DNA from: Lineus longissimus
Taxonomy: Eukaryota > Nemertea > Pilidiophora > Heteronemertea > Lineidae
Direction of reading: 5' to 3'
DNA: 64,000 bases
Assembly: GCF_910592395.1 (NCBI RefSeq)
Contig: NC_088322.1
Span: forward strand, 3,100,001 to 3,164,000
The position numbers and the translations under genes were made by a program. This document shows, one piece after another, positions 25,889 through 60,864 of the stretch. Below the pieces are notes generated by a model. The model was not told the DNA's origin. It did not search any database and worked only from the letters and a program-made list of their open reading frames with translations. How positions within the stretch are numbered: the stretch's first letter is position 1; each line of letters begins with the position of its first letter.

Positions 25889-26075
25889 TGCTCTTTTTTG
25901 TATTTTAAGTAGCTTGTCTTTTTCTTTCCTGTTATGTAATATGCCCGGATTATTTTATCTGGATAACGCGGAGAATTATTATGGAATTCTTTGAGAGGAC
26001 CAGACCTATGTCTTTATTACCACTGTTCGGCCTACACGCCAGGGTTAGTTGAATGATGTCACTCAAGCAGTCAGC

Positions 26076-29887: not shown

Positions 29888-29923
<36 letters not shown>

Positions 29924-30679: not shown

Positions 30680-30808
30680 GGACAATCTCCCCTAGGTAAA
30701 ATTGCCCACCCGGACATTTTTCCCCAGAATAAAATAACCTAGGACATTTTTTCCTGGGACTTAGTATCCGGGGGACATTTTTACCAGGGGACACTTAAAA
30801 CTTCTACA
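30680..30808. repeat. Ginger right-end subterminal repeats
   Basis: GGACATTTTTCCCCAG, GGACATTTTTTCCTGGG and GGGGGACATTTTTACCAGGGGACAC-type words (none perfect copies) repeat three times before the terminal ACTTCTACA. They mirror the hairpin words at the left end. Confidence 0.7.
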
Positions 30809-30812
30809 CCGG

Positions 30813-34150: not shown

Positions 34151-34210
34151 CGGTTAGGCCGGCCCATCAAGTTAGAGGATACGATATGCGTTATGGCGTG
34201 GAACGTAGAA

Positions 34211-34232
34211 CACAGAAAAAAAAATCGATCTT
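34211..34232 (+). repeat. Left terminal inverted repeat of the giant transposon
   Basis: CACAG, nine A, then TCGATCTT. Its partner at 60,843-60,864 differs at one base in the A-run. A looser match (GAGACAAAA..GTCTT against GAAACAAAA..GTCTT) extends about 25 bp further. Confidence 0.85.
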
Positions 34233-34882
34233 CAAACGAGACAAAACGGGTCTTAAAAGGTTTTGAGACATCATTACATTCATTTGAAACAATTATTCAA
34301 TAAATATTGTCTCGACTTGAGATGTCCGATCTTGTTTTTATTTGGCGACAGGCCTATCTTCAATTGAGATCCTTTTCTACGAATTTGAGATGCAGCGATT
34401 TCGATTAGATGTAAAACAATCGTATTTTGATTTGAAGATAAACATGAGTTAGGCCTATCTTCAGTTGAGATCCCTTTACTGAAGTTGAGATTCAGCGGTA
34501 TCGACTGAATGTACAACGATCTCGTAATAACCACGAGGTCCGGTGCGCGCCGCCACAGTTGTTGACATTTTCATGCCGCTCTGCGATTGATTCGAATTTG
34601 TCGATTTTTCATCAGGTAAAGTTCTATCGCCGTAGTATCCGCTGCTAATAAGCCCAATAACCCAGCTTCTAATATCATCGATCCATCCGATCTCCACCAA
34701 AACTCGTCACAACCAGCTGTATCTGAGTTAATTTCTCCGCCCGTAGTCTTTGTAGTAGTTTTTCAGTGTAGCTCATGAGCTATATACATTGTGCATGCAT
34801 CCATGTCGTGATTGATAGCACTGCCACACACACACACACAGGGGAATTGAAGTGGCTATGGCTAGTGGTTAATGAATGTAGG
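34233..34882. repeat. Left subterminal region with TTGAGAT repeats
   Basis: Non-coding. Words of the form CAATTGAGATCC, AGTTGAGATCC, CTTGAGATG and AAATTGAGATGCAGCGAT recur in both orientations between 34,310 and 34,500, including a near-direct repeat TAGGCCTATCTTCA-TTGAGATCC (at about 34,352 and 34,453). The right end holds related GTCTCAACTGGAGAT words, so these may be transposase-binding sites. A (CA)n run lies at about 34,826-34,840. Confidence 0.6.
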
Positions 34883-37433
34883 ATGTGGTATATTTGCAAA
34901 CATTGTAGGCCTGATCATCTTGGGCATGCTGGATCAGTGTTCAGGTGTAAGTCTTTCCCCCAGTGGGTTAGACATCTGCAAAATGTCCACAGCTCAGAGC
35001 CTCTCTTCAGTGTTGCTTGTGGGGTGAATGGGTGTGGGAAGCGATATACGAAGGTGAATTCTTTTTTGAAACATATCAAAAGAAAGCATCGACTGACAGA
35101 AAATGAAATACCTCTGCGTATATTCGCAGCCGGTGATCTTGATGCTGTGCCGGAAGATCAGGCTCCTGCTGGCATACAACTTCAATTGCCTGATAATCCA
35201 CCTGAGCCTCCCAGTGAAGACCAGGAACCAAATTTAGGGTCTGGGGATGAAGAGATGGATGAAAAAAATGAAGAAAATGAAGAAACAGAAAGTGACGACA
35301 AGGAGAGCTTAACAGATCATCTTGCAAAATTTCTTCTTAAGCTTCGTGTTGAGTACAAGGTCCATTCAGATGTGCCACAACTCTTTCTTGATGAAGTTGA
35401 ATACATCACATCTCTCATCAAGAAAGAAACCGAAAGAAATATACAAAGCTATCTTGCAGGACGCAATCTCGGTATGGATGAATTTCCTGGTCTGTCTGAT
35501 ATCATTCTTACCAACACCAAAGAAGTCTCTGCTGTTCAGCAACTCAATACTCTGTATAAACAAAATAGGTACTACAAAGAAAGGTTCTCATTGGTTGAGC
35601 CTACTGAAATTGTTCTGAGTCGAAATGCACAGAACAAACCAGTGGATACATTTCAATACATTCCATTGCCAGATCAACTATCTGCTCTGATGAAGCATGA
35701 ATATGTAGATGGACATGTTATTGCTGGACATAAAAGTGATGCTTCAAGAATCGAAGATTACTGTGATGGGTCATTGTATGAAATGAATGAAATATTTCAA
35801 GAGAATTGCCATCATCTCCAGATATTTGGATATGTTGATGAATTCACTGTCTCGAATCCTTTGAGAAACAAAGCAAAGAAGTATAAAATAACAGCAGTGT
35901 ACTATATCTTGGGTAACATTCCACCAAAACTTAGGTCAAGGCTTTACGTAATTCAAGTCGCATGCCTTGCAAGAAGCATCCATGTTAAGAAATATGAGGC
36001 AATATTGGCCCCATTTCTGAGAGATTTGAAGCAACTTGAGAGTGAAGGGATTCACCTGACCTCCTCAGGTTTGAATGTTCAGGTGAAGGGTGCACTCTGT
36101 CTTGTCTGCGGAGATAATCTTGGTTGTCATCAGATTGGTGGTTATAGTGAAAACTTCTCATCAGGGCTCATCTGTCGCTTCTGTATGGCTACGAGAGACG
36201 ACATTCAAGTGATACATGATGTGCAGGAGTTCACTCAAAGGACCATTGATTCTTACAATGATCAGATTGAGATGGTTACTGAAGATCCACGTCTTTCCAG
36301 TACATATGGTGTTAAGAAGGATCCCCCTCTCAATGCTCTCCAACATTATCATGTTGCCGAAGGTTTGCCACCAGACTTGGCACACGATATCTTTGAGGGT
36401 GTTGCCTGCGAGCTGATTGTTCTGGTAGTCAAGTACTGTTGCAAAAAGGGTTTCTTCTCACTGAAGTCTATGAATAAGGCTATTCGAAATCTGGACTATG
36501 GGGAACCAGACAAATCCACTAAACTTTGCAGTGAAGCAAACTGCATGCCAGACATGGTGCCTGCTGAGGCTTTTTGGAATACTCGTTGGAGAAGGTGTGC
36601 CTCATGATGATGATGTTTGGGGTCTCTTGTTGGATCTTCAAGAGCTGGTTGACATAATGTGTAGTCATTCCATCCCCAGGAATGTCCTGGGTTATCTTCA
36701 GGATTTCATCTCTGAATTCCTGAAACTGTGGCATTCATTGTTCCCTGATTATGTAATGAAACCAAAGTCTCACTACCTCCTGCATTATCCCCAGCTAATG
36801 CAAAAGTTCTCAGTGCCCACATCATATTGGACTCTCCGGTTTGAAGGGAAGCACAATGTCTTGAAATCTTTTGCTCAGAAAACCAAGAATGTGAAGAACA
36901 TTTGCAAAACACTTGCTTCTGCCCATCAGCTACAACAATGCTATGAGAATACCAAGCCTGAGTTTCTTGCCTATGAGACTCCTCAGTTCGTGAAAGAAAA
37001 GAAGGTACAAGTTGACAGCCTCACCCCTGATGTTCAGGATCTCTTGAAGGCAGTTGGCCTCATCATGCAAGAATCTGACCAGATGACGAATGACCAAGGT
37101 GCCGCTGTACAAGAGCTGCAGTGCTACTCTGCTGTGGTAGTGGAAGGTTGCAGATATTCTGCAGGGTCTGTTGTTGTACTGGCACCATACCATGAGGAAC
37201 TATATGAATTTGGTTTGGTGAAATCTGTACATCCTCTACATGGGCAGCCTCTTCTATTGGTTGAGAGGCGATACTCACTCTACTTCGAGAAGCACATTCA
37301 TGGTTTCATAGTTGATACGTCACATCGGCAAGATCTGATTTCACCTGCAAATCTCTTAGACCCCCACCCGTTGTCCATGTACCAGACAAAGTTTGGTCCT
37401 GCTGATGTGCTGCACCACAAGGTGTATGCATAA
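34883..37433 (+). pseudogene. CACTA/EnSpm-like transposase with C2H2 finger, one frameshift
   Basis: A single long exon from ATG 34883. Two zinc-finger-like pieces come first (C-G-V-N-G-C ... H-I-K-R-K-H), then an acidic stretch (D-E-E-M-D-E-K-N-E-E-N), then a long domain with Y-V-D-E-F-T-V-S-N-P-L, L-V-C-G-D-N-L-G-C-H-Q-I-G-G, C-R-F-C-M-A and P-P-D-L-A-H-D-I-F-E-G-V, and in the last third K-S-H-Y-L-L-H-Y-P and W-T-L-R-F-E-G-K-H. This order resembles animal transposase-like proteins of the EnSpm/CACTA type (transposase_21 plus DUF4218-like parts). A frame change near 36,505-36,545 splits it (34,883-36,607 and about 36,540-37,433). The conserved D/E blocks may be catalytic. Assignment to superfamily is my inference. 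Confidence 0.6.
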
Positions 37434-38410
37434 TTAATTTTTGACACCCACCCCCCTTGTTTGTAGGCCTGCTCCCCCATGCATGCCATGAATTCAAAAA
37501 GTTAGGGGTGGAGCACCTTCAACTTGATCAGACATGGTCATTGGTTTGCTCTTGTCTGATATATGATATGAATTATGACTTTAGTGTGAGTACATGTATG
37601 CTACGAATAGCCATACTTCAGAAAATGTGATTGAACTTTCTGTATATGGGCATGTTCACATAATGGGGACTCGAACTGTGACATCAAATATCAATCATGA
37701 CCAACGTCCAACACATACAAATGTAAACAATCTAAGCCGAGACAGAAAATGGTCATTTATAACCTAAACTAGTAGTTGAATTCTAAGAGAATGAAATTCC
37801 TAGATTTGGCCTTCGGGGGAGCAGTATCATCCGTGTATCCACAAATCAGCACGAATGCACTTCTACTGCTCTTCATTTCATGTCAAGAGCATTTTATTTG
37901 GTGTGTTGGTTGCGATTTTTTAAAATGACAACATTTAAGTATCACAACTGAAAATAACAATCTGAGATGAAGTCTTTGATGAACACCAGGTTCTCTGTTG
38001 AATGGCCAAATACTGGGGTATCGGGTAGGAGCCGCTCATAAGCAATCATGTTCTTTTGTTACTACTGTAAAATTGAAAGGGTCTCAGGCAGGCCTACTCT
38101 CAACGATTATAATTTTTGAGCCAAAATCCCTCATTGGAAATGGGTCTGGCCTGTGACGGACACAACAGCTGTTTGTATGGGCGAAATCTGTCTGTGGACA
38201 AATGAGCGGCTCCTAGCCGATTTTCAAGTAAAACGGACATGATTTTTGACATCACGGCTAGGTCCCTGTCATGCCTATTATTATGGTCATGATGGTTGTG
38301 TGAACATGCATATTATCATTATAATTAGAAAATTATGGATTTCTTTTTCGAACGCGAATTCAATATCAATACCATCCTCTGAAAATGTTTCCATTTACCA
38401 TTGTTTACAG
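37434..38410. other. Spacer, no recognised gene
   Basis: AT-rich region between the transposase gene and the next gene. It ends with a pyrimidine-rich TTGTTTACAG acceptor-like site at 38,401-38,410, so a 5' non-coding exon of the next gene may lie within it. Confidence 0.4.
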
Positions 38411-38420
38411 GCTCAACAAT

Positions 38421-41400
38421 ATGGCAACCGGCAGTGCCAGTGACATGGCAACGGACGATATCATCACTGTTCATGTGACATGTGGCGGACTAAAGAAATT
38501 GGTTACACCGAAAAAAGCCAACATTGAAACTGAAATTCGTAAGATCATGGTAGCTGATCATGATGTGGTCAGCGTCCAATACTATGACAAGGGTTGGGGG
38601 GATTGGATCGATATTACTTTTGATGACATTGAAGCTAACATGAAATTGCAAATAGTTCAGAAAATTTATTTGGTGATCCCAGTTCAAGGCTATTCGGCTG
38701 ATCTCTCAGGCGGTTTTGATATGCTCAACACAAGTATCGTGGATTCGGCTGATCGGACAACAGGCAGTGCAAGTTTCTTAGCTGACACGAGTGTGGAGGA
38801 AGATAATCGTAGCATCTTGTCTACATCAACAGTGGATTATTGTATCCTTACAAAGAACGACACTTCAGGGTAGGTATTGAAAAAAATATCAACACCACTA
38901 CCTCCAGTGCTTTAGGATTCATGTATCGGCTTAGTTTGAGAAAAAAGAACATCTGTTCAGTTTTGTCCATTCAGAATCAAGAGTGTATCGGATGATTCCC
39001 AAGCCAGCAATATACAGAAACACTCTTGCCTAAAGAGTGTACCTTCGGATGAAAAGGTGTGACAGGGAAAACCCTGCTCTGTTCCAGCATTTCAGCTCAT
39101 TTTCGATTGGATAGATGGAGAGTCTGTCATTGGAATTGAAATGGACCAAATAGCAGCTCATGAGCTGTGTGTCTGATCACATGTAGCCTTGTTAAAATAT
39201 TCATTGCACTAGTAAAGTCACCCATGGTATGGCTTAAGCCACAACCACATTAACAATTTTTCTTCAGCAAGATATGATAACACCAGATGTCGGGTTGAGC
39301 TACTTGGAGAACTAAACTTGCTGTGTCGTCCAGACTAAACATGAATTCTCCACAACACTTCCTGAAGATTCACTCAGTGGGAAAGAGAGTCCAGATCAAA
39401 ATTACTCGTTTACTGGCCTCTCTTTAGCAAGGAGGGTGCTAAAGGTTGGGTTACAGCATATTTCACAATTCGAGTGCCTGTTTTATACACCAAACCTAAA
39501 ATGCAAACGCCACAAAAATTTCCAACTTGTACAAAAATACGCCCCAAATTAATTTACAATATAGACCTAGGTCAAGTTTTTACATTACAACCCACCCAGA
39601 ATGTAGAAATGCTTGTTTTCCCCTCAATGCTGTTGAAAACACTGGTCAGAAAGTGGATGGTGCTGCACCTGGAGTGACAACATGTTGCTTGAAAATAGAA
39701 CAGGCAGCTCAGACAACAACACTGGTGGGAAGTATCAAATTACTTGAATAAGAAAAGTTGTTGAGTTGACCAAAAACAGGTGCAAAACTCGCCGGACAAC
39801 ATGGACAACTCGCCATTGACACTTTGCAAATTGACTGTTCTTCACTGGTCTGTCACTTTGTTCGCTGATGACGTCATCAACACATTTTGGTTCCCGAAGT
39901 CTCCAACAGATGGCAGGGCGAAAGTTGCAAATTGACTGCTCTTCACTGGTCTGTCACTTTGTTCGCTACTGATGACGTCATCAACACGAAACGGTCAAGT
40001 TCGGCAATGTCCGGCAATTTACGTGAGTTTTAGATCAGACAAAATTCCTGAATAAAATCGCTAAAAAGTCCACATTCCCGGCAAATGTTTAGACTTAGAA
40101 TCGATCATTTTGTGAAAGGAAAGGTAGTGAAAGGTTAGGTGAAGTTTCAAAGAGACAGTGCGCACGGTTGCCGTGATTTCCTTGGAAGTCTATAGATTTA
40201 GTAGTGTAGATGCCTTTTGTTCCATTCCACAGGAAAAAGCCTTGGTCATCTGACTACCGCGTTCCCAAAGAGCAGCTTTCCAAGAAACTCAGGAAGCACC
40301 TCGAAACTACACATCTGGCAAGACCGCTAGGGAAGGGACAGAAGTCAGAACTATTTGGGGTTTTGTATAACGACCTCAATTATAATTATGGAATTCAGTA
40401 AGTTTTTCTTATGATTTAAAAGAGAAAGCTAAATCATGTGCTGTGTACTGTTCAATGCCCAGTAGTTGTACCAATTACAGGAGTTCAACTAAAAGGGGGC
40501 AGGAAGGAAATATGTGTCCCTATTACCAAGTTTGGAAAAGCTTGACCAGTAAGGATGGCACGCGTTATCTTCCTTTTGGTAATGCTCAAGAAGTACTGGT
40601 TTAATAGACCTGAAAGTTACAGGTATAAATAGAGGAGGTCATAATCAAAACATAGAAAATATTATGGTAACTGGAGACAAATCGATGTAGGAAGGCTTCT
40701 CTTATTGAACATGTTGAAGGAAAACCTGCAGGCTGAACTGAAAATAGAGCTTTTGATTGACTTGCTCCTTATGGCATTTTGTATTTTTAGAATATCCCCA
40801 GGCCAATAAGTTTGATTCAAAACAACTTTAGTCTACTGGTGTGATTAGAAATTTTATTTTCACTCCAGCTATCCAGGATCCAAAAAGAAGGATATTGCTA
40901 GCGCATTATACCCTTGCCTGAGGTCAACCCTTCCAGGTTCTAACCCGACGGTATGTATCAGACTTTCACAAAAATTAGTTCTAGTTGTGATCCCAATGAA
41001 AGAAATTGGGTCCGGGGTATGCTATATTGCTAGTGGGTAGTATCCATTCTATGGACTCAGTCCAAATGGAATGAGTGACTTTGACCGAGTGCCAAAATGT
41101 GCAAAATGCAAGAAAAAAGCCGTTTTGTAGATAAAATGAAAGGATATTGTGTAGGTACTGATAGAATTTGCACCAGCCATCAGTCACATAGTGCGGTTTG
41201 CTTACAATAACAAGCTTATTTTACCTTGCAGGACACTTTGTACTCCCAGATAGGCACATACTTTCGAAACGCACACTACAGAGGGGCTGATAGTGATGTT
41301 GAAAAAGTTGCAGCGAAGAAGAAGAAGACGAAGACGACTCAAAAGGCCACCACATCTGCCACTGGTGCCGAGAGTACCACTACAAGTCCATGGTCGTTGC

Positions 41401-44400
41401 CCAATTTCTTACCGATATCACCGCCTGGAGAAAGTGAGGCAACCATTGCCAAGCATAAGGTAAATTGTTTGTTTCCCATGCTTGATGACTGCCTAATTCT
41501 TCTACTTGGTGGATACTTGTAGCTTGTTTTCGTGCCCCTTGTGAAGGAGTACTCTTTGGATTTATACAGTTTTTGGAGCAAAAAAAGGAAAAAATTGATG
41601 TCTGCTGAATGATCTGTGTGTACAGGACTCACTGTGCTTAATACACACGTGTACATGTAGATGTAGAGCCGTGTGTAATCTTGCGCATAAGTACACCAGA
41701 CTTAGTGTTTTCGCTTGGATGGCGTCGAAAACGATCAATGAACATTTTGCAGGGCCGGTACGCTCGGAAACGCCGAGGCAGGCAGGTGAAAAATGTAAAG
41801 GCGACCAGCGTTCCCCTCAGAATGGTTTAGGAAGTCTGGAAATGAAATCTACCCGTAGAGAACACGATACAGGCGAGCATGACTTGGATGACTTGCGTGA
41901 CTCTAACCTCATACAACAGCAATGGACTTGGCCCGGGACGCCGGGAATATGTCGCAAAACTGGTGAATAACTGTGATTTTTTGTTTCTACAGGAACATTG
42001 GCTCTATGAACACCAATTTCAGTCCCTGATAAAAGATTTCGGTACTTTAGGTAGCCCTGTGAGTGACCATGGACGATCTGGAATGAATGACAAGGTACTC
42101 TTGAAGGGGAGACCGTATGGGGGCTCAGCTATTTTATGGAACTCAGGGGTTAGGGCACGGGTCACCCCGGTTGTTTTTGATTGCGCCACTCGCAGGGTGT
42201 GTGCGGTATCGGTGAACTTTGAATCGATAAATGGCGATATTTTGTTAATCAGTGTGTATATGCCAGTTGATAATGCTGCTGAGGCGCAGGTCTATCGCGA
42301 TGTTCTAAATGAATTGGTACAATTGATGGAATCTGTTAACTGTAAATATGTGATTCTTGGTGGTGACTTGAACACAGTTTTTACTCGTGTGAACTCGGCA
42401 AACACGACACAGTTACAACAGTTTATGAGGGCCGAATCATTTCGATGTGGTCTACAGTCTCTGAAGGCCCAAGTTGACTACACTTTTGAAAGTAAGATAA
42501 CTGGTGCTAGGTCACTAGTAGATCATTTTCTTATGCCAGAGCACATGATGGATCTCATCACTTCATATTCTGTATCACATTCTGTAGATAATTTTTCAGA
42601 CCATTCGTGTCTCCATATTTCATACAAATTTCCCACGAGGGCTGGGTTTGGTCCGGTGGATAAGTTGGACGAGGACAATTCTGAGCCTCAATTAGGTCGA
42701 GATTTGACGAATACAGGCAGGTTATGCTGGGAGAAAAGTAATCCAGAGAACTTGATAGAATATGGAAATGAGCTTGATGGTTTGCTATCAAACATAAATG
42801 TTCCGTTAAATGCTATGCGGTGTAATGATCGATTGTGTCGGGACCATTTTAATGAAATTGATTCTTTTCATGATGACATTGTTAATGCCCGTCTGTTGGC
42901 TGGTGATAGATGTATACCAAAGAATGAGCGGGGATACGGTCGGAATCATAATGGCACTGCTGGATGGAACGATGAAGTTAGGCATTTGTGACCCACTCTA
43001 TGATAACCCGGCTAAAGTCGCCAGACAGAATGCCAAGAAATAGGCCTATAAACCTGACAAAGTGCTAAAAATAACACATTTAGGTCAATTATTTTTATTT
43101 TTAAAATGAAGTATAAATGCTATCAAGTTTCTGATTGAGCAGTCCCTTTTTGTAAAAAACTATCATAGAATATGAAAAAAAAGAATTTATTGACTCCAGT
43201 TCTTTTCAATTATTGGTAAAATTTGGCCCCAAGCGTCGATTTCCAACCCCCAGTGGCTCTGCATCAGATGCGGAAACCTACACTGGTTTTGGTGTCATTC
43301 GGTTCAGGAACTTCTTTTCTTTCATTGAATGCTTTGCAGACCTTGTATCGCTCCGCTCATAGTTATTATCACCACTTCCAGGAAGGCAACGAAAATATGC
43401 GACTTTAGCCGGGGTGAAATTCCTGTGTCAATTTCTCCAGATCCTGACCTAAATTCCAGGAACTGATCATTGTTTATGTTAGATTAACATTCGGTGATAC
43501 TGTCTATGCCGCTGTTCTAATTTTAAACGCCTGTAATTCATCAAAACAATTCATTGTTTGGACACAAGAATGAAGCGTTTTCATCTCGTCTAAAATCCAA
43601 GATGGCGGCGCCCATGAATCTCGAAGAGCAGAAAGTTGCAAGGTGTTTAAACAGCCTGTGTGCCATCAATCTTGGTGGAATAGCATCGAATGATGACTTA
43701 ACTGGACTAATAGAAGATTATTTCTTCAATGGTGACACTGAGGAAGACGACGATGCTTTATTTGACGAGTCGGACGAGGAATTTGAAGGTAAATTTTCGT
43801 CATGTACATTATGTACAGTCAATGTACACAAGTCAGCAATTATCGTTGAGAGGTTTGTCCAGACCCTATAAAACCTCACGTTTTGGTTAGTTTCCACAAT
43901 CAATTTTGGAATTGCTTTATTTGGCCCTTTATTTTACATCCCTAGTAAAGAAAGAAAACCAAATCTATTAGTAATTTCACCAAAATAGTGGTAATCATGG
44001 TCCACCAGTCGTCACTAGTTTTATTGCTAGTGTGTTTCGGTCGTCGCATCGTCACGTTGAAGAAATGCAATGTCAAATACTACAGCTAAAGGGCATAACG
44101 CCCGCCTGTGCCTGCGGTGATAAAAAGTAAGTAGTGTCATACATGAGAGGATTAAAATAATAAAGTGGCTTTCTTATTTTTCCAGTCAATGACCAAGCCG
44201 ATGATGAAGACAAGCCGATTCTCGTGATTGAGCCACAAGCAGCAGCCCTCTCGACTCTTAGACAAGATGAAGCAGTAAATACTGTGTTTGCTGAAAATGG
44301 TGGCAAGCATGACACGAAACTGGATATCAGGTTTTCCTGCAGCTGCAAGTTATTCAACGGGCAGAAATGTTCATTGCATTTCAAAGAGGAGGAACTTCCG

Positions 44401-47400
44401 TCTTTGCGTATGAGGCATCTTGAGATGGACAATACACATTTAGACTTGGTTATCCTAGCCCAAATAGGTAGCCATATTCACCGCGGGGAAGAGACTGTTA
44501 AAACGAAGAAAAAAGAGCAAGCAGGTCGGAAAAGAAATCGCCTGGACTATTTTCATGAGGGGCAAAAAATTTGTCGTGACACTTTCATGTACATCCACGC
44601 AATTTTCAAAGATCGTCTCGGCGCCTTGGTTAAACATTATGTGGACAATGGTGTCACTCCCAGGTTGCATGGCAATAAGGGAAAGTTGCCAAAGCATGCC
44701 CTCTCAGTTGAGGACATTGAGCGTGTTGTGACTTTTATTCATAACTATGCTGAGGAACATGCATTGCTACTCCCAGGGCGGATTCCTGGGTACAAGAGGG
44801 ATGACCTGCAGCTCCTCCCATCTTCAGTGAGCAAGGCCGATATCCATAAGCTGTATTCGAGATCGTGTGAGGTGGCTGACAATCGGGGAGTAAGTGAATG
44901 CACCTTCAATCGTCTCAGGCAGCAGTACGTTCCCACTGTCCTGCCAATGAAACCAATGTCGGATCTTTGCTGGACATGTCAACAAAACAGTGCCCTTATC
45001 CTCAAGGCATCGAAGAGAGAGATTGTTGACAAGACCGATGCCCTGAAAAAAGCAGAGAAACATCTTCTTCAAGCCACTACAGAACGGTCCTTCTACAACT
45101 CAGAAGTCCAGGGTTGTCGTGATGTGCTTAAGGAACACAACATCACTGAGCTGAGAAAACCTGGAAATGCTGTACCAAACTGTGCTAATGATTTCAAGGT
45201 GGGTGTTTTTCTCATGCTTTCATGATAATTGTTTCATTTTCATAAGGCACATTCAAAAAGCATTTTAGCAGCATAGACATGATAGATTGATAAAACTACA
45301 AATAACTCATTCTGGTGCTCTGATGAAGCTTCTTTACATTAATTGGCCTCATACTCTGATGACTCATCATTATGAACTAGCTAATGATAATAATGATAAT
45401 GATAGTTGCATGTAAGTACAAGTTTGTTCACTTCTTTTCAGGTCCATTACAGCTTCGACTTCGCACAACAGCTACATTACCCCCATGACCCGATGCAGCC
45501 ATGGCCTATCTTTTTCAAGACGCCTCGAAAGTGCGGTGTATTCGGAATGGTGACAGAAGGACTTCCACAAATGGTGATCTTTCTCTTGGATGAAGCTACG
45601 ATTGTAACCAAAGGTGCGAACTGTGTCATCAGCCTTCTGGATTACTTCTTTGACAATTACGGGCTGAAGGAAGCAGAGCTTCATTTGCATGCAGACAACT
45701 GTTCGGGCCAAAACAAGAACAATGCAATGGTGCAATATCTTACTTGGAGGGTGATCACGGGCCAACATGAGAAAATCACTCTCTCATTCATGCTGGCAGG
45801 ACATACAAAGTTTGCCCCCGATTCAATGTTTGGTCTATTCAAGCGGAAGTACCGTAAAACAAAGTGGATTGCTTGAATAACATTGAAGAGGTTGTTCGTG
45901 CCGCATCTCCCGCTGGTGTCCTCATCCCCCAAAGCTGTGGCGATGAGGCTGGGAGTGTAATTGTTCCAATGTACAATTGGTACACCTACTTGTCTGATTA
46001 TTTCAGGAAGCTCCCATCAATCAAGCCACTCCATCACATTGAGTGTAGGCGTGATGGGAGTGTCATTTGCAAGGAGATGTCGGAGTCTCAACCAGTTACA
46101 CACCGTATTCTCAAAGTTGATGCCACTGATGTGCCTCACGCTAAAGCACCTGTTATTATTCCAGCTGGTCTCAGTGATCAGCGCAAGGCATACTTGCACA
46201 AGGAAATTCGGGAATTTGTGGCAGAAGAATTCCAGGACTTGGTGTGCCCAGACCCAAATATTCTGCCTACTGTACCCGTACCCGAAGAGGATATGGATGA
46301 AAACGAAAATGTTGTTGCTGCTGCACCAGCTCCTGCTCGTGGAGTTGGAAGAGCAAGGAAAACCCCAAGAGGGCGTGCAAAACGTGTGCGACTGAACTGA
46401 ATAAAACGATGAATAGACATTTTGATTGAATGAATATTTCATGATTGCATTAATGTCATACTCTTTTTATTTCGTGGTCAGCATTATTAAAAAAGTATTA
46501 AACTCATGGAAAAATGTTTTAGAGGCTCAATTGATAGTTCAAAACAAAGATGCAATGCTTAAATCATCAATCAATGAAATGTGCTTTTTATTGCATTAAG
46601 CTTTGAAGACAAAAAGAATATTTTGAATTCAAAAAATTTTGATTTTGAAAAAAAAATAATTTTCAATTGACTTTTTATGATTATTTATATTTTTTCTTCT
46701 TAAACTATAGTAAAGAAAAAAATGACCAAGAAATAAAGAGAGTATAGGCTAATTAGCAATCTGATCTCTTCAACAAAGCTACATGTAGAAAAGTAAGGGG
46801 CTATTTAAATACATGAAGGCCTGAGGCCGCCAACAACGTAAGGCCATAATTGGTGGTCATCGTGATATTATGTAACAAGAGGCAACTAAAATGTTATGTA
46901 ACTTGATAGTACTTGGATATTTTTGCTTTAAAAATGTTTATACTGATATTTCTCAAAATAAAGTTCATATGAAGACATCTTATTTGTAATTATTGGTTTT
47001 CAAAAGTGCTAGTGTCCTACCCTCCCCACCCCCTGGCCGAACCTCATTTTTCGGCTTCCTTGTTCCAAGACGCCATGGTAATCCCATCACATCCCAAAAA
47101 GAACTAGAATTTTCCCATGCCCATGGCATATATCACTGGAAAGCTGAAAGTTAACCCTTTATTTTGATGCATGCCACAACCATGGGAGAATTCTGGTTCA
47201 AAAGCTATCTGGTGTCAAAGACATAGTGACTTTTAACAGCCAGATTTCTCAAAATCATGAGATATTTGGCCGGACATTACCAAAATCTTTGACAGGCCAT
47301 AACTTCGTCAGCTTTTGAGATATCAGGGTGCCCTTTTCACAGAATATTCCTTATTGCATGTTGATTCAATAATGTATCAAACAGACGATCATGAAATTAA

Positions 47401-50033: not shown

Positions 50034-50395
50034 ATAGAGCCACGTGGTTAAACATCAATAAAAATATGCATTTTAAAACGTTGTTTTATCAATGATAACT
50101 CACATTTTTTAATGATTTGATACTTTTATGTCTTTAAATGTGGTCTAATTGAAATAAAATGCGACAGTAACACAATATTCGTACTGAATTCATAGCAGTC
50201 TGGGAGCCGATAGTTGGGTTTACTAAATGTTGTGCTTCAACAGTGTGCATTGTAGGCACGGGGCCGAGGCTGTTTATTGTCATTTGCGTAGGGGTTTTTT
50301 AAAAATGGATGGTTCCTTCGTGTTCAGTATAAAATTTCATGAAAGAAACGCTCTAAAATCCCCTAAAATTCCCAAGATTTTTTGAGTTTCTCGCG

Positions 50396-53300
50396 ATGGA
50401 AGGTGACCCTAAAAAGGGCAGTTCTCGAAGAACTTTGGCTAGTGTTTTTAGTGCTGCGAAGCAAGAGAAAGACATAAATCTACACCTTGGACTTGGGATC
50501 GGGCCTGGTCATGATGGCAATGGTGCCAATAGGCCTTCTACATCAACATGTAGCGTGTCCAGTGCCAGGCCTAGTGATATTGGTGATGAAGTGGGAACAC
50601 CTACCAAGCGGATGAGGACATTACCAACCCCTTACTCACCTTCGAAAACGTCTGCACAGATGGTAAGTTTGATGGTATGGGTCACAATCCCATATCATGA
50701 TATTATAGTGACTGCTATAGTTTAGACTAGGCCTACACGTACCGGCGCGGTACTATACGATACATGCTCCACCGCCTTATTAGACTCGGGCTTAGATCTG
50801 CAGTAGGCATAGGCCATACCTTTTGGCTGTATTACTAAAGCTCGTGTCAGTGCCAGCCAGGGCAGGTTGCTGTTGATGAATGGCCATCCATTAAAGCAGA
50901 CCTAGTTTTGAGTGTTGGTTGTGTAGGCTATATCCTATTGGCGTGGCTTGGCCGTAACTGGTGGATACAAACCAGTTCATTAATGCCTGGCCATTTTGGA
51001 CCGGTCTGTACTTGTCCTTAATTTGAAATTCCTTACATCAATACATGCCTGTTTCAGTTACATTCCATTTCTTTTTCAGACGGCCAGTAAAATTTTGCGT
51101 AGAAGTAAGGCACATTTTAGCCCTGTGAAGAAGACACCAGAGCCAGTTCTGTCCAGAGGAGTACTCGGTGAATGGTCCCAAGCAGAAATCACTGCCCTAG
51201 TTCAGTTCATTGCTCTGCACAGGTACGGTACCGTAACTATTTCAAGGAAAAGTGGGACAATTTGACATGCCTGAAATCACATTAGCAGGGTGATGTGAGA
51301 TTAGAGATTAAAGCCTATTCCACTGATTGAGTGCGGCTTTAATCGTCACTTCAGAATCCTCTGGCACTGTGTTTGGTGAAAAGGAACAAAACTGTTCATA
51401 TCAGAAAAGAGCTCTATATCAACTGTATCTTGTGTATCTTTCAAGGGACAGGCAAGCTAATCCTAATGCTGAATGGCCGATGATGAAAGCGGTACATCCT
51501 TACTGGACAGAGGCAGCAGAGTTCATCCACATGACAAGTAACTCAACCAGTTTACGTCAAGGTATAGCTATATATTCTTCTTACCTTGATATTCGTATCT
51601 GATGTTATTATCTGCTTAATTTTTTTTATATTATTAGTTTTGCCTGTCATACAATGGTAACAAAGCTAAGCAAGTTCCTAATTCTTCCCACTTACATGAC
51701 ATTTTAAAACACCATAGCGTCATTATTAAATTATTAAATTTGATTTCATTGCAGTGACTTGTTATTTGAAGGTAGGTTGGAGGATTGGTGAGCAAAGCAT
51801 TATGGTGACTGATGCACGCACTGTCTTCATCTGGGCTTTTTACACTGCTTATCTGTAATTTTGCTTTGTGGTCACGCCTTTCCATTTGTCAGCTGATGTC
51901 CATACGTCACATCCATTGCACATTAGTGAATATATCCAGTCCTGTCAGTCCTTTCCTTTTTGTGGTATCCTGCTTTTTGTGGTCATGGTGAAATGTTTGC
52001 ATCTCTCTTATTGCAATAGGTGTGGTGGTTGCTACTTGCTGCATATCTAATCTATGCTTTTCTTTATTTCAGTTTCTTTAGTGCATTGCTATTGGTGGTC
52101 TTTGCAAATGCAGCTCTTGATCATATGAAATGATTCCTTTACCTGTGGTGTTGTAAAGATATTGCACTTTTCAATTCTTTTTCCAGCTGGTGCAGTAAGA
52201 TCACGTATGCAAACTCTGAGGCGAGATTATGGTACAGTTGACAATGCCGAGGACAAGCTTGGGATTGGCATTGATGCATACATGGATGACGAGGAAACTC
52301 CTTCATTGACCCCTCCTCCCCTATCTCTTCCACCATCAATTACATTGGATCTGAACCACCTAACTGAGTGCCAGAAACAAGACCTGCTGAGGAGATTACT
52401 CCCTGGGATGTTGGAACAGTCGGCAGTGAATATCTTAAAAGACTTTGTGAAAGACATTCATCAAACGAATGCATGTACCCTTATAAAAGAGTGCTTCAAG
52501 TGTAAAGGTATTAACCAAATAGAGGTCCTGGACAATCTGCTTGGTCGTCATTTAAAGACTTTGAATGTCGGAAAAATTCCAGATAAAACAGATTCCATAA
52601 GTTTGTCTGTGACAGCTATGCAGAAGCTTGCAACACTGGGCAAGGAAAACCTTATCTACAAGTGGCCAAGATGCATTGCCTTGACTAGGCCAGAAAGCGA
52701 GGAGTCCCTGATGCCACTGCAAAGGATGCCATTTGGGTTGATAGAATATCAAATTGATTTCTTCAATGCCACCCATGTCAATCAGGTAGGTTATTATCAG
52801 TTAATTTTCATCTTTTAGTTATGATATTAATAGAAGAGTCTAAAATTGAGTTGTTCTTTAATACATGTACATGTTTGAATTATGCTGCTGCACAATTCCC
52901 TGTTGATCATAATCCTCATGTTTACTATTTCAGGTCAAGGAGTCTGTAGATTTCCGCTTATGGAGGGAGACCCTCGATGCTGAGCTAACACTCCGCCAAG
53001 AAAGGTTAGTCACTGGCCCAATGTGGAGCGGTTGCCCTACCTCGGATGTTCGAAATCCCATAAAGGTACATTAACATATTCTGCTTAAGATGTTGACACT
53101 TAGCATGCTCATGATGATTGACATTGTACTTAAGTCCTCATTCTGATTTTGACATCAATTATATGGCATGCCTAGTTTTTTATTGATATGGTGACTGATT
53201 TTTTTTCGTGCATTCTCTATCTAATAATCTAGTAAAAAACTTTCTAAATTCTTCCAGGCTCGAGTGAACCTTGCCTGTAGAAGCAAGCGCACCGTCTCCC

Positions 53301-56300
53301 GGAAACAGAAACTGGTAGATGGCGTTTCAACAGAACCTGTCATACAAGTAAGTTATACAAGTAGAATATCAACTTTAATAGAAGGCTAGCTAAGGAGCAG
53401 TGTAACATGTATGCTAGACAAATATTTTTTAATATATTTCCATGTTTATTTCAGAAAAGTACACTTTCGGAACTGAAAGAGGTCAACCCAAATGGCAGAT
53501 TTTGGCTGAAAGCAGATGGTGTTGATGTGAAGCCTGCCCTCCAAGAATCCATGCGAGGAGTATGGAATGGTGATTCGGATCTTGGTGATGGGAAGCTGCA
53601 GGCCCTTCGGGAGGTGTATGATAATCGAAAGAAGGAAATCAAGGACGCCGTGCATACGAGTACATCCAGCACCACGCTTGAACCCACCCTGAGACAAGTT
53701 GAGAAAGATCTTGATGATGATAAGGACTTCCTTAGCACTGGTTTGGAGGGGGCAATCAAAACCTTCACATCCAAGTCGCGTGCTCAGAACACTCCAGAAG
53801 AAGCATTGAAAGGTGCCCATTGGGAGGTAGTGGAGTTCACCACCCTACTGACGCAGTGTCAAGAATTTCTGAGCCATATTCATAAGTTGCTTGGGCGTCT
53901 AGCATCAGAGAGCATAACACATGGTATGGCGAGGGATGATTTAAGGAGCATTGATGTGAAGTACACACAGTACTTAAAAAATATATTCAAGAAGAAACGC
54001 CAGCCTCCTGCATCACATGTCCTTGTGTTCATGGCATCAGATGAACGACGTAATAAGAAGCCATATGCTGCACCGGTTCAGTTCGTGCCGTACCACTCCA
54101 TCCGCGACCAGTACATAAGGGACTTTACCAAGCAGATTAAGTTGGATATGGCTTCTCATGGATTAAATGTAGTTGGTAAGTGTTTGTGAGAGTTAAAATT
54201 TTCATAGCTAGTTGTGATTCAAACTGATTTCACTTTGAATTAAAGTATGCTTAAAGTTTTGCTTGGTTTTCAAAAAAATATGATGCTAATGGCAATTGAA
54301 CAGAATCTGTTTTGGGCTGTTGTTATTTGAAATGTTTAATGTTTTTGATTTGTCTTCAGGAACAGTAACTGATGGCGGGTTTTGTTCCCTGCGGTCGATG
54401 GGAGAGACAAGACCACTCCATGTCTGGCAGCTTGTACATGATGCCAAGCTTGCAGTTTCCAAGATGAAGAAAACAACACTTCGCGATACCCTCATCCCAA
54501 CTAATGGTTTGTATAACTACACTTTTGTTTTTGAGAAGTAATCACTACGCATAATTGCCATGAAATGCCAATGATAACAAGAGGCCCAAGGGCCTGGCGC
54601 TCAGCTGAGTTAATATCATTAATATCTTCCCGGTGTTTAGTTCATTATGCATGAAAATGGCATGCTCCAAGGTATTTGATATCCTTTTGCGTTCACTACG
54701 GTACCAATGTTTTTGGTTGACATAATTATGCCACTGTTGGAACATTCTCATGGTTTATGGTATGCACCTGTTGATGGGCCATATGAATAAAAACTAGCAT
54801 AAGCTTTTACTCCAGATTTTGAAGTATTTAGTATGCTTCAAAAATTGGAACAGTTTAGTTCTTGTGAAAGCAAAGGATTTTTAGAAATCAGTATTTGCTA
54901 CCAAAACAAGTAAATGCTAGACTACATATGAACGAAAATGTAGGATGAACCTTTTACTTGGTAGTATAAATGTATTTTCTTGGAACCATGTAGCCTTTAA
55001 AAGTCGAAGTGAATGGTTGGTTGTTCCTCTTTGCCGGACTGCATTCACATTTTGTTTGGTGGACATGTCATGCAAGAATTGGTCAAACCATACATCCATT
55101 TATGGAGAATCAGAGTGCATGGATTCCGAGTCATTAAAAATGTCTAAAGAATTATTCTTGGGTCATGAAGGGAAACCTGCGTTGTTTAGTATGAAAGTGA
55201 AAAATATGACAGAGTTAAGAAAATTATGTTTTATTGAACCATAGTAAGTTTTGATTGTCTGCTTGGCTCCTTGCCAGTTAAATAACATGTGACTATACAC
55301 AAAATAGAAAACTTTGGTGGAAATTGTAAATCATTTTTTTATCTATCAGGGGAAACAAGCTGATGATGATCAAGTAAATCATTCATGAGAAATCGTTTTG
55401 TTGCTGAAGCTTGCATGACGAAGTTAATGCTAAACCTTTTCTTGTGCTCTACTGCGCCACCGTAGTTTTCTATTTAGACCAGCGATGACGTCATTTCTGG
55501 TGATTCCCTACGCTAGTATGCAATGTATTTTTTCAGCGCTGACAGTTGCCGAAGAGAGTGCCGTAGCTCCCTCAATTTCCAATCAATTTTTATGGGAGTG
55601 ACATTATTGTATTGCTTAGAATGTCTACTTTTTACTCATGAAAGAATCGTAGAACTAAAACTTAATAGGCGAACAGAATCATGCCGATTCACTGCACATA
55701 CTGTGGGAATTCTCCACTTCAAAATACATCGGCGTTGTCATCGCGAATAACAGAGCATGCACTTCCGATATCGTTTTCACAGAAATGTGGCCAAATTTTC
55801 AAGAACTAATTTCTGAAAGTAGTCCCTGAAGACCTTACGACTACCACTGAAACGAACTGGTGATAATATCGCCTAACAGACTACCGTAGTACTAGCCCGT
55901 AGCCAGGTAGCGGGCCATCGTCATCGAGCCGAGTGTCATTGAGCTCCAAGATTATAGCACATGGATCGAGTAAACACCATGCCGCCATTTTGTCTCCGCT
56001 TCGGTATTTCGTAGGCCGCTAAAATGCACCTTCTCAATTAAAACCAACATAATAAGGCCTCACATCGTTGATTGAATAGGAACACCACACAAAACACAAT
56101 AAAGTGGGGGTACAATCGATTACGAAGCTGAAGTGAACAGCGATTTATTCCTGGAGCTACTGCTGCTTTTTTGTGTAGCTGCCATGTTTTGAGAACTGGC
56201 AAATAGGAGACTTCATTGATGGCTGACGTCATCGGGCGGGTATTTGAATCAGCAGAAATAATTAAAAGGCAGGTAGCGCCCTCTCCTGTTAAAATTTTGA

Positions 56301-58726
56301 ACTTTTTCTCAATAAAATGGTTTTTCAAGAATTTTATCTTAATATTAAAGCATATTTCGACTAATTCTGCTGCTCCTAGGCCAATATAGGCCAGTTTCCT
56401 TCATGCGCTCTCGCTCGCAGGAAGTAGGTCGAATGGCGACAAATTTTGTTTTGAAAGTAGAGTTTGACCAGAAGTATCCAGAAATGCAAAATTGAAGTCT
56501 CTAGGTCTTACGGTTACAAAATGTGCACCATGGGTTTAACGGACGGACGGACAGACGGACGGACTGACAGACGGACGCCACTGAGCAGCTTGTTTGACAA
56601 GCTCAGCTGACTTTGTCAGCTGAGCTAAAAATGCCTGGAGTAGCTGAACTGGATTGTGACAGCTTTGTTTGCTTTGTTGCAGTTGTTGAAAACGGCGTCC
56701 CACTCATGGTGAAAGAAAATGAAGTTGTGCCACTGGCCCTGAAGCTGCAGTTGTTCGCTCTCATTCACCAAAATGGCGAGACTGTGGAGGACGCAATTGC
56801 TGAAGTGCGTGAGCAACTTGTGCCTGATGGATATGTTCCCCAGTTGTGAAAGGCAAATTGTCCTGAGACACATATCGATAAGCTACGTAGCATATTGGCA
56901 ACAATGTACTTCAGGTAAGCATCTTTTAAACTGTAAAAGTCTTGTTGTGCACCTGTTCTGTTGGTTAAAAGCCAAGAACTGTAAAAGATAAGGTGTAAAT
57001 CTCTTGTGATTCAGGTTCAGGACTCCAGCCTGGGAACAACGCCAGATAAGGACACGCCATTCTGTGACATCGATTGTACATCTTTGTATTTGGTTTAGTG
57101 AAATAATATATCTAGTTGAGGAAACCTGACTTAAGTCTTCTATAAACTTTTGAGCTATTTCCCCCCCCCCCCCATAATATTTGGTATTTTATGATGACAT
57201 TTCAACAATTTTCATTTCATTTCAGGCATTCCATCGAGTCCTGGTCACAGCAAGGGGTTGATTTTCGACATCATCTATATGTACCCGAGGTTGACCCTTC
57301 CACAAACATGGTACATCATGAAAGGGCTGACCACTGCCACCTGCTGAAGCGAGTTGCAAACCACACACGAGAAGGGAGGTACGAAGCATTGGACCTTGAT
57401 GGATTCGACAAGGCAATGCTGAGTCCAACAACTGGATTGACGCAGGTGGCATTGGTTGGCAAGAGGAAGCAGTCCGTAACAGATGCTGAGAAGTTGCTAT
57501 CGCATCGTGTTGCAGACTTTATGTACGACGAAGGATTCCTCGACGCAGCTGCATTTGTAAAAGTGTACGCCAGGTGGCACGAGGCTAGTGACGGGAGAGG
57601 TCTATCCCAGCTACAATGCTGCAGATACAACTACCAAACGCTAAATTATCTGCTAGATGAATTGATGCCATGGCACAGAGCGGTCTATGACTTTGCAACC
57701 ATTGATATCAATCGGTGAGAATCTTTGTTTTCTTGAAGGTTTTCTCCCAATACTGTAAACATGCTTGGCTGCTTTTCAATTGCATCTTTTGTTTGGTCAA
57801 AATCAGGTCAAGTTAGGTTGCTGTGTTTATAATTTACTTGGATTTAGTATCTCTGAATTTTACTTAACAATTTCCAGGCCATGGGGTACAGTCAGGGGAC
57901 TCTCTCGGGAAACTCTTGTGGAGATCACAACCAACATAGAGTCGCAGGAATATCGCCGTCTTGAGAACAATGAAATAGGGTACAGTGAACACCCTCGAGC
58001 TGGTACCACTGATGACGTAGAGGCGTTGTTTTCGATCTGCCATCGCCACCTAGGAGATCATTTCACGCTGCAGGATTTCAAGCACAGATGGTTTAAGATA
58101 GTCAAGTAAGGAAGTTTATCAATAGAACTCAACGCTACTAAGAATCAATAGAGACTAGTCTTTATTGATTCTTGATGCTACTTTGTGGTTTTTGACAATT
58201 GGTGAATTCTTACTTGTAAGCATTTAAAGACTATCATTTTTCAAAAGCTTAGCCAATGACATCACTGGTCACCGCCTCCCAACAATCACTCGGTGAAGGT
58301 GGCGACCATTGTGGTGCCCTGGTACAGTGTAGATATCTACTTCAGAAGTCTGTTGGCTATATGACACTTTATGTCATAGAATCATTATTGAAATTGTTCT
58401 AAAAATTATCCTTCAGTGAGCTCAACAAAAGAATGGATGACAGGCTGCCATTCTATTACTGGACACTCAATGAGCGGTTCACATTGGAACAGGAGAGTTT
58501 TGACTTGCGGCCAGACTTCGATGAAGACAATGTAGAAGCGCGCCACCACCCTCTGAGGCTGCATCGTCTCAAATTGTCATCAAGAGAAGACAGTGCCATA
58601 TTCACAGCTGGCAGATCGTTTCTTCCGGTCAAGAATCGTCCATCTGTCAGGCAGAGATTCCATCGCTTGGAGGTCGGACTCCCTCCAGTACCTGAGGACC
58701 AGCAATTACAACTACCAAATGTTTGA
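50396..58726 (+). CDS. Multi-exon transposon-style protein with Myb/SANT-like region
   Basis: Exons 50,396-50,662; 51,080-51,222; 51,456-51,561; 52,187-52,785; 52,934-53,065; 53,258-53,347; 53,455-54,175; 54,360-54,506; about 56,632-56,914; 57,226-57,714; 57,878-58,105; 58,417-58,726. Phases agree wherever both sides are clear. Exons 2-4 form a tryptophan-spaced Myb/SANT-like helix set (G-E-W-S-Q-A-E, E-W-P-M-M, Y-W-T-E-A-A). Exon 7 has G-V-D-V-K-P-A-L-Q-E-S-M-R-G-V-W-N-G-D and V-F-M-A-S-D-E-R-R-N-K-K-P-Y. Exons 10-12 have H-E-R-A-D-H, S-D-G-R-G-L-S, H-P-R-A-G-T-T-D-D-V-E and L-P-F-Y-Y-W. Similar proteins occur in many copies in cnidarian, amphioxus and fish genomes, which suggests a transposon gene, but I cannot name it. 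A TGA at 56,846-56,848 breaks exon 9. Confidence 0.65.
54575..56631. mobile_element. Probable non-autonomous repeat in intron 8
   Basis: The left side begins ACAAGAGGCCCAAGGGCC followed by GCTCAGCTGAG; the right side ends with a (GACG)n-like run (about 56,537-56,578) and AAGCTCAGCTGA...GTCAGCTGAGCT. The shared CTCAGCTGA words and GC-rich ends suggest an inserted element of about 2 kb without coding capacity. Exact ends and class are unclear, and its right edge may overlap the acceptor of exon 9. Confidence 0.5.
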
Positions 58727-59047
58727 ACTATATACACTGGCATATATCTGTTGGTTGACCGTCCTCTTTCCTTTTAAAAGTCTGGTAACAGGACACCAGA
58801 CAGGCGCACCAAAGAAATGATAAAGACAACATTTCAAATCAAGCAAATAAACATTGATTATTTTGAAAAAATACAGTGCATGTATAATTGTTTGGCAATT
58901 TTGTAAGGAGAAACTCGAGTGACTTGGCCATCAGAATCAACTAGGGTACTTCACAAACTTTTGAATCATTTTTTCTAGTCCAATGCTGCCCTAAGACGTC
59001 ATGTAACTGTTAAATTAACTTCATTGATCAATCATTTACAAATCATC

Positions 59048-59772
59048 CTAGTCATCAGTGCTCATTGCCAAGTTCAATTTGTCTCCATAACTGTAACTGG
59101 TATCAGAAGAAGGCCATGGTCCTTTCTTCACTATCTCACAGTATCCTATAAAAACACAGTCATTTGCAGCAGGCACATATCTACGAATTATTTTGGTTAT
59201 TTTGATAGAATGAATTTCCGCCTTCTCGATAGCATTCGAAACTGCACGTATCCTGTCCTTTGGCACGTAGCCAATGAGCCGGAACTCTCCTTGGATTTGA
59301 ATTTTAATACCAAGTGCATTTTTATCCACAGGATTGTCAACTTCATTCTCAATTTTCGTCTCTACTTCCTTCCCACGGTGAAATTTTAATGCCTCCTGAC
59401 GTTCCTTCGTGAATGTTGATCCCTTTATCATAAATGTGATCGATCGGAATTCTTCTTCCTGCTCATCCTTGTCACTTAGACTTCCAGTGTCACTGACAAC
59501 CAGCTCACTCAAATCATCTTCAATGTCTGACATATCTGAACCAGAAGAATCGACCATAACAGTAGCCTGCTTTACTGCAACAGTTTTCCCTTCCACCATG
59601 CAATTGCAGCCATCCTCCAGATCGGCATTTGGCAGGCCAAATATTGGCTTGGCATGCTTGGTTCTCCTTTTAAGAATGGCCCAGGAGCACTAGGCAGAAT
59701 GTCGAAGTCGACAATCAGGACAGCTTGGCAGACGTCATCCTTGTCATCACCCACAGGTTTTTCACCAGCGAA
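59048..59772 (-). pseudogene. HIRAN-domain protein, minus strand, one frameshift
   Basis: Read right to left, an acceptor lies at 59,773-59,775 (CAG on the minus strand) and the frame runs through D-D-K-D-D-V-C-Q-A-V-L, shifts by one near 59,655, then continues F-G-L-P-N-A-D-L-E-D-G, an acidic serine-rich part and a HIRAN domain (about 59,130-59,380: E-V-E-T-K-I-E-N-E, N-P-V-D-K-N-A-L-G-I, I-G-Y-V-P-K-D). HIRAN folds bind 3' ends of single-stranded DNA, as in HLTF/Rad5, so a role in handling transposon ends or replication forks is possible. A 5' exon may lie at 60,324-60,369 (minus) with a GTATGT donor. Confidence 0.65.
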
Positions 59773-59775
59773 CTG

Positions 59776-60623
59776 AAATTAGAAATTAGTTATGTGGAAT
59801 GAAACAATGGGTTTGTGAACTCGCATGTCAACTGTCATTGAACATAATTTCTTTCACATGAAGCCTTGTAAGTCAATTAATATTGTATCAATTGATAGTG
59901 TTACATGTATCATGTATGATGTAGCAATCATTTGAATGATGACCAGAAGAATTGCTTATGGTTTGTAAATAAACTTTCAAATTGTCTTGTCGCAACAACT
60001 CTCGACTTCTTCAGTTACTCTGCTGTACCAAGTTCTTCATTTTTCAAATGGCAAATGCAGTCTCCTGACATGTCACTTCGGATTGAGGAGCTTGCCTTGC
60101 CCGGAGGGTACACAGTCTTCTGATCCAAAGGCAAGTGAAGTGAAGTTGTTTTTTAGTGTACATGTATGTATGTAGATCTATGTACATTGCATGTGTGTAT
60201 AACAAACAACAGGAAAAACCCGAGATTTCACCAACTACCAACTTGGAGGATTGATTCTATAAGTTCTGTAGAACAATCATAGCATATAAAGGCAAATATA
60301 TTTGAAATAATCGTTTTACATACCAATAAATCGTAGGAACTTGTCACTTTGATTAGAGATGGGGTCCATTGTTTTCCAATATTTCGTAATTTTTCGGTCA
60401 CGGAAAACAGCACAAGATAGCGGGTAAACAGACTATCTGAATAAGATAAAATAAAGGTAATTTTTTAAGTAAAATGAGTATTCGGGTGAACTTCATTCCA
60501 CCAGCAGGGACATCCTGATGATATCAGGCGTTTTTACCGCCCAGAGGTAGGAGGGGCGATAAAAAAGGATGCAGCCGGGAAGACTATTTGTCAAATGAAG
60601 ACGTCGCTATCTTGAATGGAGTA
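59776..60623. other. Right inner flank of the giant transposon
   Basis: AT-rich. It holds the putative first exon and introns of the HIRAN gene on the minus strand; otherwise nothing is recognised. Confidence 0.4.
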
Positions 60624-60624
60624 C

Positions 60625-60855
60625 AAAAATCGATCTTAACTTGAGACAAAATTGTCTTGAACCGTTTGTCCCCATGGGCAAGATTCGTTTGTCTCAACTG
60701 GAGATAAAAGAGTCTTGAAATTGAATCGAGATAAAAGAGTCTCGATTCGAGAGGCAGACCTTCAAGACTCTTCTTATCTCCACTTGAGACCAACTAATCT
60801 TGCCCTGGGGACAAACGGTTCAAGACAATTTTGTTTCAAGTTAAGATCGATTTTT
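60625..60855. repeat. Foldback at the right end of the giant transposon
   Basis: An arm of about 100 bp starting AAAAATCGATCTTAACTTGA at 60,625 is repeated in inverted orientation ending at 60,855 (blocks CAAAATTGTCTTGAACCG, TTTGTCCCC and GGGCAAGATT are shared). A further small hairpin (GAATCGAGA/TCTCGATTC) sits in the centre. The outer arm contains the terminal inverted repeat itself, so the right end can fold into a cruciform with an internal copy of the terminus. Confidence 0.85.
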
Positions 60856-60864
60856 CTTTCTGTG
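60843..60864 (-). repeat. Right terminal inverted repeat of the giant transposon
   Basis: Inverted copy of the left end: reads CACAG, AAAGAAAAA, TCGATCTT on the minus strand. It is followed by AA and the resumed LINE frame. Confidence 0.85.

Follow-up and report, generated by a model that had tools for sequence, protein, structure and literature searches.

Among the closest described systems, EnSpm/CACTA transposons and their relatives make up the CMCT group, with a signature as defined in PMC12730594, and the hAT, P, MuDR, Kolobok and Dada group has a C/DxxH signature in common, according to PMC9587614. P elements produce 8-bp target duplications and their proteins begin with a THAP domain (PMC7776569), and KolobokP, a two-gene transposon of animals, nemerteans included, combines a His-Me nuclease with long terminal direct repeats and belongs to a superfamily with TTAA duplications (PMC9587614). 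Here we compare with these systems a stretch of 64,000 nucleotides from the nemertean Lineus longissimus (C15:3100001-3164000, referred to as the window; the genome searched comprises 391 Mb in 30 contigs), where a long interspersed nuclear element (LINE) is interrupted at positions 34211-60864 by an insertion that the original prediction took for a single cargo-carrying DNA transposon with four genes. We are highly confident that 34211-60864 is instead a nest, in which a second DNA transposon landed inside a two-gene CACTA/EnSpm-type element. The ends, copies, missing pieces and signature residues on which the nest reading is built are directly visible in the DNA, and its new part is the inner element, probably an undescribed transposase lineage.

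We label the outer element "CACTA/EnSpm-type", a provisional label rather than a firm family, from the apparent CMCT group features of its sequence. Its parts in the window, and the target duplication on either side, are as follows.

34209-34210, no strand: left copy of the AA target duplication, within the LINE endonuclease frame
34211-34232, plus strand: left 22-bp terminal inverted repeat of the outer CACTA/EnSpm-type element, common to C12 and C10
34772-37433, plus strand: transposase of the outer element, split over two reading frames that change near 36.5 kb; its motifs are a C2H2-like start, D, CRFC, HYLLH and RFEGKH
38376-38870, plus strand: exon of the PB1/SAMD3-like gene (our presumed label; without a Pfam match)
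40210-40398, plus strand: another exon of the PB1/SAMD3-like gene, bordering a 1.0-kb insertion
49571-49977, plus strand: outer element resumed, with a PB1/SAMD3-like exon cut off at 49977
60450-60864, plus strand: outer element, right-hand end, where 53 nt of the end recur in inverted orientation and TTGAGA motifs are repeated
60865-60866, no strand: right copy of the AA target duplication, after which the LINE continues

The boundaries are AA followed by CACAG at 34211 and CTGTG followed by AA at 60864 (in longer form, GTAGAA before CACAGAAAAAAAAATCGATCTT on the left and AAGATCGATTTTTCTTTCTGTG before AAGG on the right). The original prediction had delimited a real multi-gene DNA transposon to the base from these CACAG ends and the AA duplication, and in this it was right; its 22-bp inverted ends with one mismatch also hold when re-read in the sequence. 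The continuity claimed for the LINE was likewise borne out, as its flanks join in a single frame once AA is counted once (AWNVEGLKNKIADK), and the joined frame across the insertion reads KLEDTICVMAWNVEGLKNKIADKSFLEYISKFNIFGL. Uninterrupted copies of the target LINE (paralogous empty sites), proposed as a check, did not turn up: a DNA search with the joined flanks returned just the two halves at this site.

Other copies of the ends do exist in the genome. With no mismatch, the 22-bp end gave eight matches at five loci (two each at C10, C12 and the window, one at C6, and a left-type one at C15:6037872, outside the loci read for the outer family), and a further 16 weaker matches are close to what the control gave (10 in all). 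The leftmost 90 bp of the element are 100% identical at C12 and C10, with differing flanks. A 2-bp target duplication is present in all three copies that have both ends (AA in the window, TA at C12, TA at C10); the C6 copy has kept its right end, followed by TA, and its first 48 bp on the left are gone. The motif TTGAGA occurs nine times in the outer 800 bp, a count reached in none of 2000 letter shuffles, vs. 0.9 times per 800 bp in the inner core. The right end also contains a 53-nt inverted pair (60625-60677 and 60803-60855; 96% complementary, 125 nt between the arms).

Comparison of the window with 40-kb stretches at C12, C10 and C6 separates the outer family from what lies within this copy. 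All three are collinear with window positions 34211-39208, 40210-41511, 49571-49977 and 60450-60864 at 91-99% identity; within the first of these segments, C10 is interrupted by inserts of its own and C6 lacks 34211-34258 and 34854-35927. The segments 39209-40209 and 41512-49570 are found at these points in the window alone. Between 49977 and 60450, C12, C10 and C6 have about 2.75 kb with additional PB1/SAMD3-like exons, ~97% alike mutually and unlike the window; the window gene is without two exons present in the other copies. Without its 3.9-kb insert, the C12 copy of 13,832 bp gives a length of about 9.9 kb for the outer family. Exons of both the transposase and the PB1/SAMD3-like gene are present in 3/3 of these copies, and a SANT-like or HIRAN gene in 0/3, in the stretches read.

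Coding sequence of all four predicted gene types is indeed present in the window, although the labels PB1, Myb/SANT and HIRAN are weak. What did not survive is their union in one 16-17 kb element: the outer family is shorter and has two genes found in it, 49978-60445 is separate, and the four-gene set does not recur between CACAG ends in any of the three other copies read, a result that speaks against the prediction on its own terms. As a side observation, the C10 copy has, within the ~2.75-kb part lost from the window, a 93-bp unit in two tandem repeats, and blastn offsets suggest relatives of it in C6 and C12.

The segment 49978-60445 is a separate transposon; its two genes lie between terminal repeats of their own at C3 and C16. 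Its features in the window are listed below.

49978-60445, plus strand: inner transposon, right end gone (178 bp relative to C16)
49978-49996, plus strand: left terminal inverted repeat of the inner transposon, CAAGGAGGATCGGACAACT
50393-58726, plus strand: inner SANT-like transposase-type gene of 12 exons, with an in-frame stop in exon 9
59051-59778, minus strand: inner HIRAN-like gene, tail to tail with the transposase-type gene, with a frame change near 59641

Between 49978 and 60445, and no further, the window and the C16 copy, which is complete, are collinear at 98-100% identity apart from inserts. The C16 copy has a perfect 20-bp inverted pair, whose right arm ends 178 bp beyond the last inner base left in the window. 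Helitron-like ends, also considered for the inner unit, were dropped when this inverted pair with the C16 right end was found. At C3, a 29-bp inverted pair (96.6%) encloses the same two genes, and this complete copy (C3:13199059-13206388; 7,330 bp) has an exact 9-bp duplication, CTGTGCGTT, on both sides. Genome-wide, the 19-bp inner end gave 19 matches with up to two mismatches, vs. one for the reversed control. Judged by eye, inner-type ends at C1, C6, C7, C9, C13 and C20 have the element's subterminal DNA and different flanks, and five of eight further inner-type ends have subterminal DNA like that of the C3 or C16 ends; five two-mismatch matches lie outside the ends read.

The longest exon of the inner main gene gave eight matches at six loci, namely the window, C16 (96%), C3 (65%), C9, C7, and a piece at C11. 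Its splice sites were chosen by hand. Exon 9 reaches ~56914; in the window it has a stop at a position that codes for a residue in C3 and C16, and this rules out a fully open main gene in the window; the C16 gene has one stop, in exon 5, different from that of the window. The window and C16 main genes differ by 0.011 nonsynonymous (dN) and 0.014 synonymous (dS) substitutions per site over 1,133 codons (initial splice model, with exon 9 short), as is expected for recent copies under little constraint. In the window and at C16 (96%) and C3 (44%), the HIRAN-like gene and the main gene meet tail to tail, and the HIRAN-like frame is intact in C16 near the position matching window 59641. The HIRAN-like gene thus stands beside the main gene at three of the five loci read, since none was found in the 30-kb stretches fetched at C9 and C7 (C11 lies outside the fetched set). 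Its Pfam scores (15.9 bits in the window, 21.3 bits at C3) are below the curated cut-off of 24.7 bits, and a homologue search over 104 candidates gave none at an E value of 0.001 or less.

Relatives of the inner protein at that same E value threshold number 13 among 7,995 candidates scored, and include proteins of Lineus (63%), Mytilus, Actinostola, Branchiostoma, and Amphiura; none of the 13 has a precomputed Pfam domain. In the signature D...D...DxxH...E, the first D and the DxxH are present in 13/13 relatives, the second D in 12/13 (N in P0012), and the E in all 11 rows that reach it (the tail of P0008 diverges, and P0013 stops earlier). The Pfam family TNP-like_RNaseH_N (PF21787; cut-off 24.6 bits) matches ten of the 13 at E values up to 1 (best 1.3e-4), and the eight relatives scored individually all match near profile positions 61-131, each below 24.6 bits. 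For Myb/SANT (Myb_DNA-bind_4), P0001, the C3 relative, reaches 18.5 bits where the cut-off is 27. Because of the signature residues and the weak RNase H matches, along with differences from P elements, the inner protein is predicted to be a DDE transposase at the level of the broad hAT/P/MuDR/Kolobok/Dada group. Among the sequence matches to it in the Protein Data Bank (PDB) there is no transposase. P-type RNase H above the cut-off occurs elsewhere in this genome (20 matches), and in none of 14 control genomes.

Target duplications of 9 bp are usual in Mutator elements. The inner element may be a diverged member of P or MuDR in which HIRAN is a passenger limited to this worm, and we give this reading somewhat less than an even chance. 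It would account for the weak matches to P-type RNase H, which fall on the same profile positions in the eight members scored individually, for the 9-bp duplication, and for the two of five gene copies near which HIRAN was not found, but Pfam lists neither a THAP match nor a Mutator transposase domain for the 13 members, and the duplication at C3 is 9 bp rather than the 8 bp of P elements. Further, also against this reading, HIRAN has been retained beside the gene with 44% identity between C3 and the window.

The outer transposase has nine protein matches, sea cucumber and tick among them. In alignment A2, where conserved residues were scored by eye in the rows reaching each motif, D and CxxC are present in 10/10 rows and HxxxH and E in 9/9. 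Its Pfam matches to tnp2 and Plavaka are both sub-threshold, and Transposase_21 scores 13.6 bits in the window and 14.6 bits in P0014, below the cut-off of 28.6 bits. The second outer gene we take to be PB1/SAMD3-like, a label that Pfam did not confirm (no match for the PB1 exon). It is rather unlikely that the outer family took this gene from the host and that it has no working role there. In favor of such a capture, the outer copies are few, and a second CACTA-type transposase, 27-36% identical to that of the window, lies ~2.4 kb past the right end of the C6 copy (in copy orientation) with no PB1/SAMD3 match found beside it; against it, PB1/SAMD3 exons have been kept in all three other outer copies read.

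In the nest reading, a ~9.9-kb cut-and-paste CACTA/EnSpm-type (CMCT) transposon with two genes would have entered the LINE and duplicated AA, and a second DNA transposon with CAAGGAGGATCGGACAACT ends would then have entered its PB1/SAMD3-like gene, where the left target duplication is probably TTGTAACTG (49969-49977). A deletion would have taken the last 178 bp of the inner element, the right target duplication and ~2.75 kb of outer DNA, leaving the fusion at 60445-60450. The likely order of events is thus LINE, outer element, inner element and deletion. Outside this order, the remaining length would come from the second LINE, which carries the DUF7869 transposon, and from two smaller repeats. 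The outer transposase would cleave at CACAG ends, with a 2-bp stagger on insertion and possibly with PB1/SAMD3 as an accessory, and the inner protein would use DDE chemistry and a 9-bp stagger to cut and join CAAGGAGG ends. HLTF-type repair enzymes use their HIRAN domain to bind free 3' DNA ends, and the HIRAN-like protein therefore fits the part of a helper at cut ends, which may, for example, hold the cut 3' end or recruit repair.

It is very improbable that the CACTA element took up 10.5 kb of ordinary DNA by gap repair, replacing ~2.75 kb of its own. Such a capture would agree with the replacement of outer DNA by the piece and with the lack of a target duplication, but the piece begins exactly at the 19-bp terminal repeat that bounds the C16 and C3 units, as a chance capture would not. 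We give next to no credence to one large four-gene cargo-carrying CACTA transposon. In its favor, all four genes have coding sequence within the CACAG ends of the window copy, but it is rejected by the three other copies read, where SANT and HIRAN are not found, and by the inner element's own ends around these genes at other loci. Both genes are part of the inner transposon, and the impression of an element "far larger and richer than usual" is an effect of nested insertions.

Several observations weigh against the nest reading or parts of it. Both elements are known as transposons from their sequences and not from transposition seen, and every Pfam score seen for the two transposases is under the curated cut-off. 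The inner genes of the window are broken by the exon 9 stop and the HIRAN frame change, the C16 main gene has its own stop, and HIRAN is not found in the C9 and C7 stretches. The C16 inner copy is flanked by GGTGGCGGC and GGTGCAACC, which agree at 5/9 positions and are not a target duplication, so the 9-bp length is taken from the C3 copy. Of the eight further inner-type ends, three are without common subterminal DNA (by eye), and a partner end was found at none of C6, C13, C20, and C1 (0/4) in the small stretches fetched.

Besides the two elements, the interval contains the following insertions.

39209-40209, no strand: 1.0-kb insertion, absent at the matching point of C12, C10 and C6
41512-49570, plus strand: second LINE, with endonuclease at 41846-42991 and reverse transcriptase at 47303-49408; its insertion cost the outer element ~31 bp of target
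42987-47433, plus strand: DNA transposon with a DUF7869 gene and 33-nt inverted ends, nested in the second LINE
54577-56626, no strand: 2.05-kb repeat in an intron of the inner SANT-like gene, absent there in C16

The DUF7869 gene scores 49.8 bits against a cut-off of 26, and its transposon has a target duplication of either 2 bp (TT) or 4 bp (ATTT). DUF7869, a domain of unknown function, may be a candidate transposase, as its HADNCSGQNKNN motif suggests. DNA related to the 2.05-kb repeat is present elsewhere in the C16, C12 and C9 stretches. Upstream, window positions 8701-12467 and 21469-31699 contain reverse transcriptase, RNase H, and integrase fragments of long terminal repeat (LTR) retrotransposon type, presumably Gypsy, and an open frame at 13474-14784 matches TatD DNase (119.6 bits vs. 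a cut-off of 27).

Neither the pairing of SAMD3/PB1 with CACTA/EnSpm nor that of HIRAN with a transposon is described in the open-licence literature, judged by titles and abstract openings among the matches listed (Repbase not covered). Tentatively, and with slightly less confidence for than against, we suggest that the inner element founds an undescribed superfamily of animal DNA transposons. Its marks would be CAAGGAGG ends with 9-bp duplications, a DDE transposase that starts with Myb/SANT and has DxxH, and a dedicated HIRAN protein, and its transposase would have relatives among molluscs, cnidarians, lancelets, and brittle stars. A protein family named uncharacterized or hypothetical in several animal phyla gains an identity here, from the terminal repeats around it in Lineus and its transposase signature. 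To our knowledge, no earlier transposon use of HIRAN has been reported, and a HIRAN kept beside a transposase would be the first known. The locus also illustrates how nesting and one deletion can imitate a giant cargo transposon.

Compared with EnSpm/CACTA and the CMCT group, the outer element has the CA..TG inverted termini (CACAG...CTGTG, 22 bp), a target duplication within the 2-5 bp range (AA, TA, TA), and in its transposase the C(2)C, the H(3-4)H between the second D and E, and the final E; repeated subterminal motifs are a further likeness. It differs in its presumed PB1/SAMD3-like second gene and in tnp2, Plavaka and Transposase_21 scores that are all under the cut-off. The inner element resembles P elements and THAP9 in its D, D, and E with a long stretch preceding the E, and in its weak TNP-like_RNaseH_N matches; however, its duplication is 9 bp at C3 and absent at C16 rather than 8 bp, a weak Myb/SANT match takes the place of THAP, and the P-type RNase H above cut-off sits at other loci of the same genome, separate from it. 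Similar to KolobokP, it is a two-gene animal transposon, but with short inverted ends, a 9-bp duplication (CTGTGCGTT at C3, in place of the TTAA of Kolobok) and a HIRAN-like gene. Unlike MuDR/Mutator, it has no Mutator transposase domain among the Pfam families listed for the 13 members. Among the scores seen, no named member of the hAT/P/MuDR/Kolobok/Dada group exceeds its cut-off for the inner protein, yet the D, D, C/DxxH, E signature of this group is present, with the DxxH between the second D and the E in 13/13 relatives, and the inner element is set apart within it by its HIRAN-like gene and its CAAGGAGG ends.

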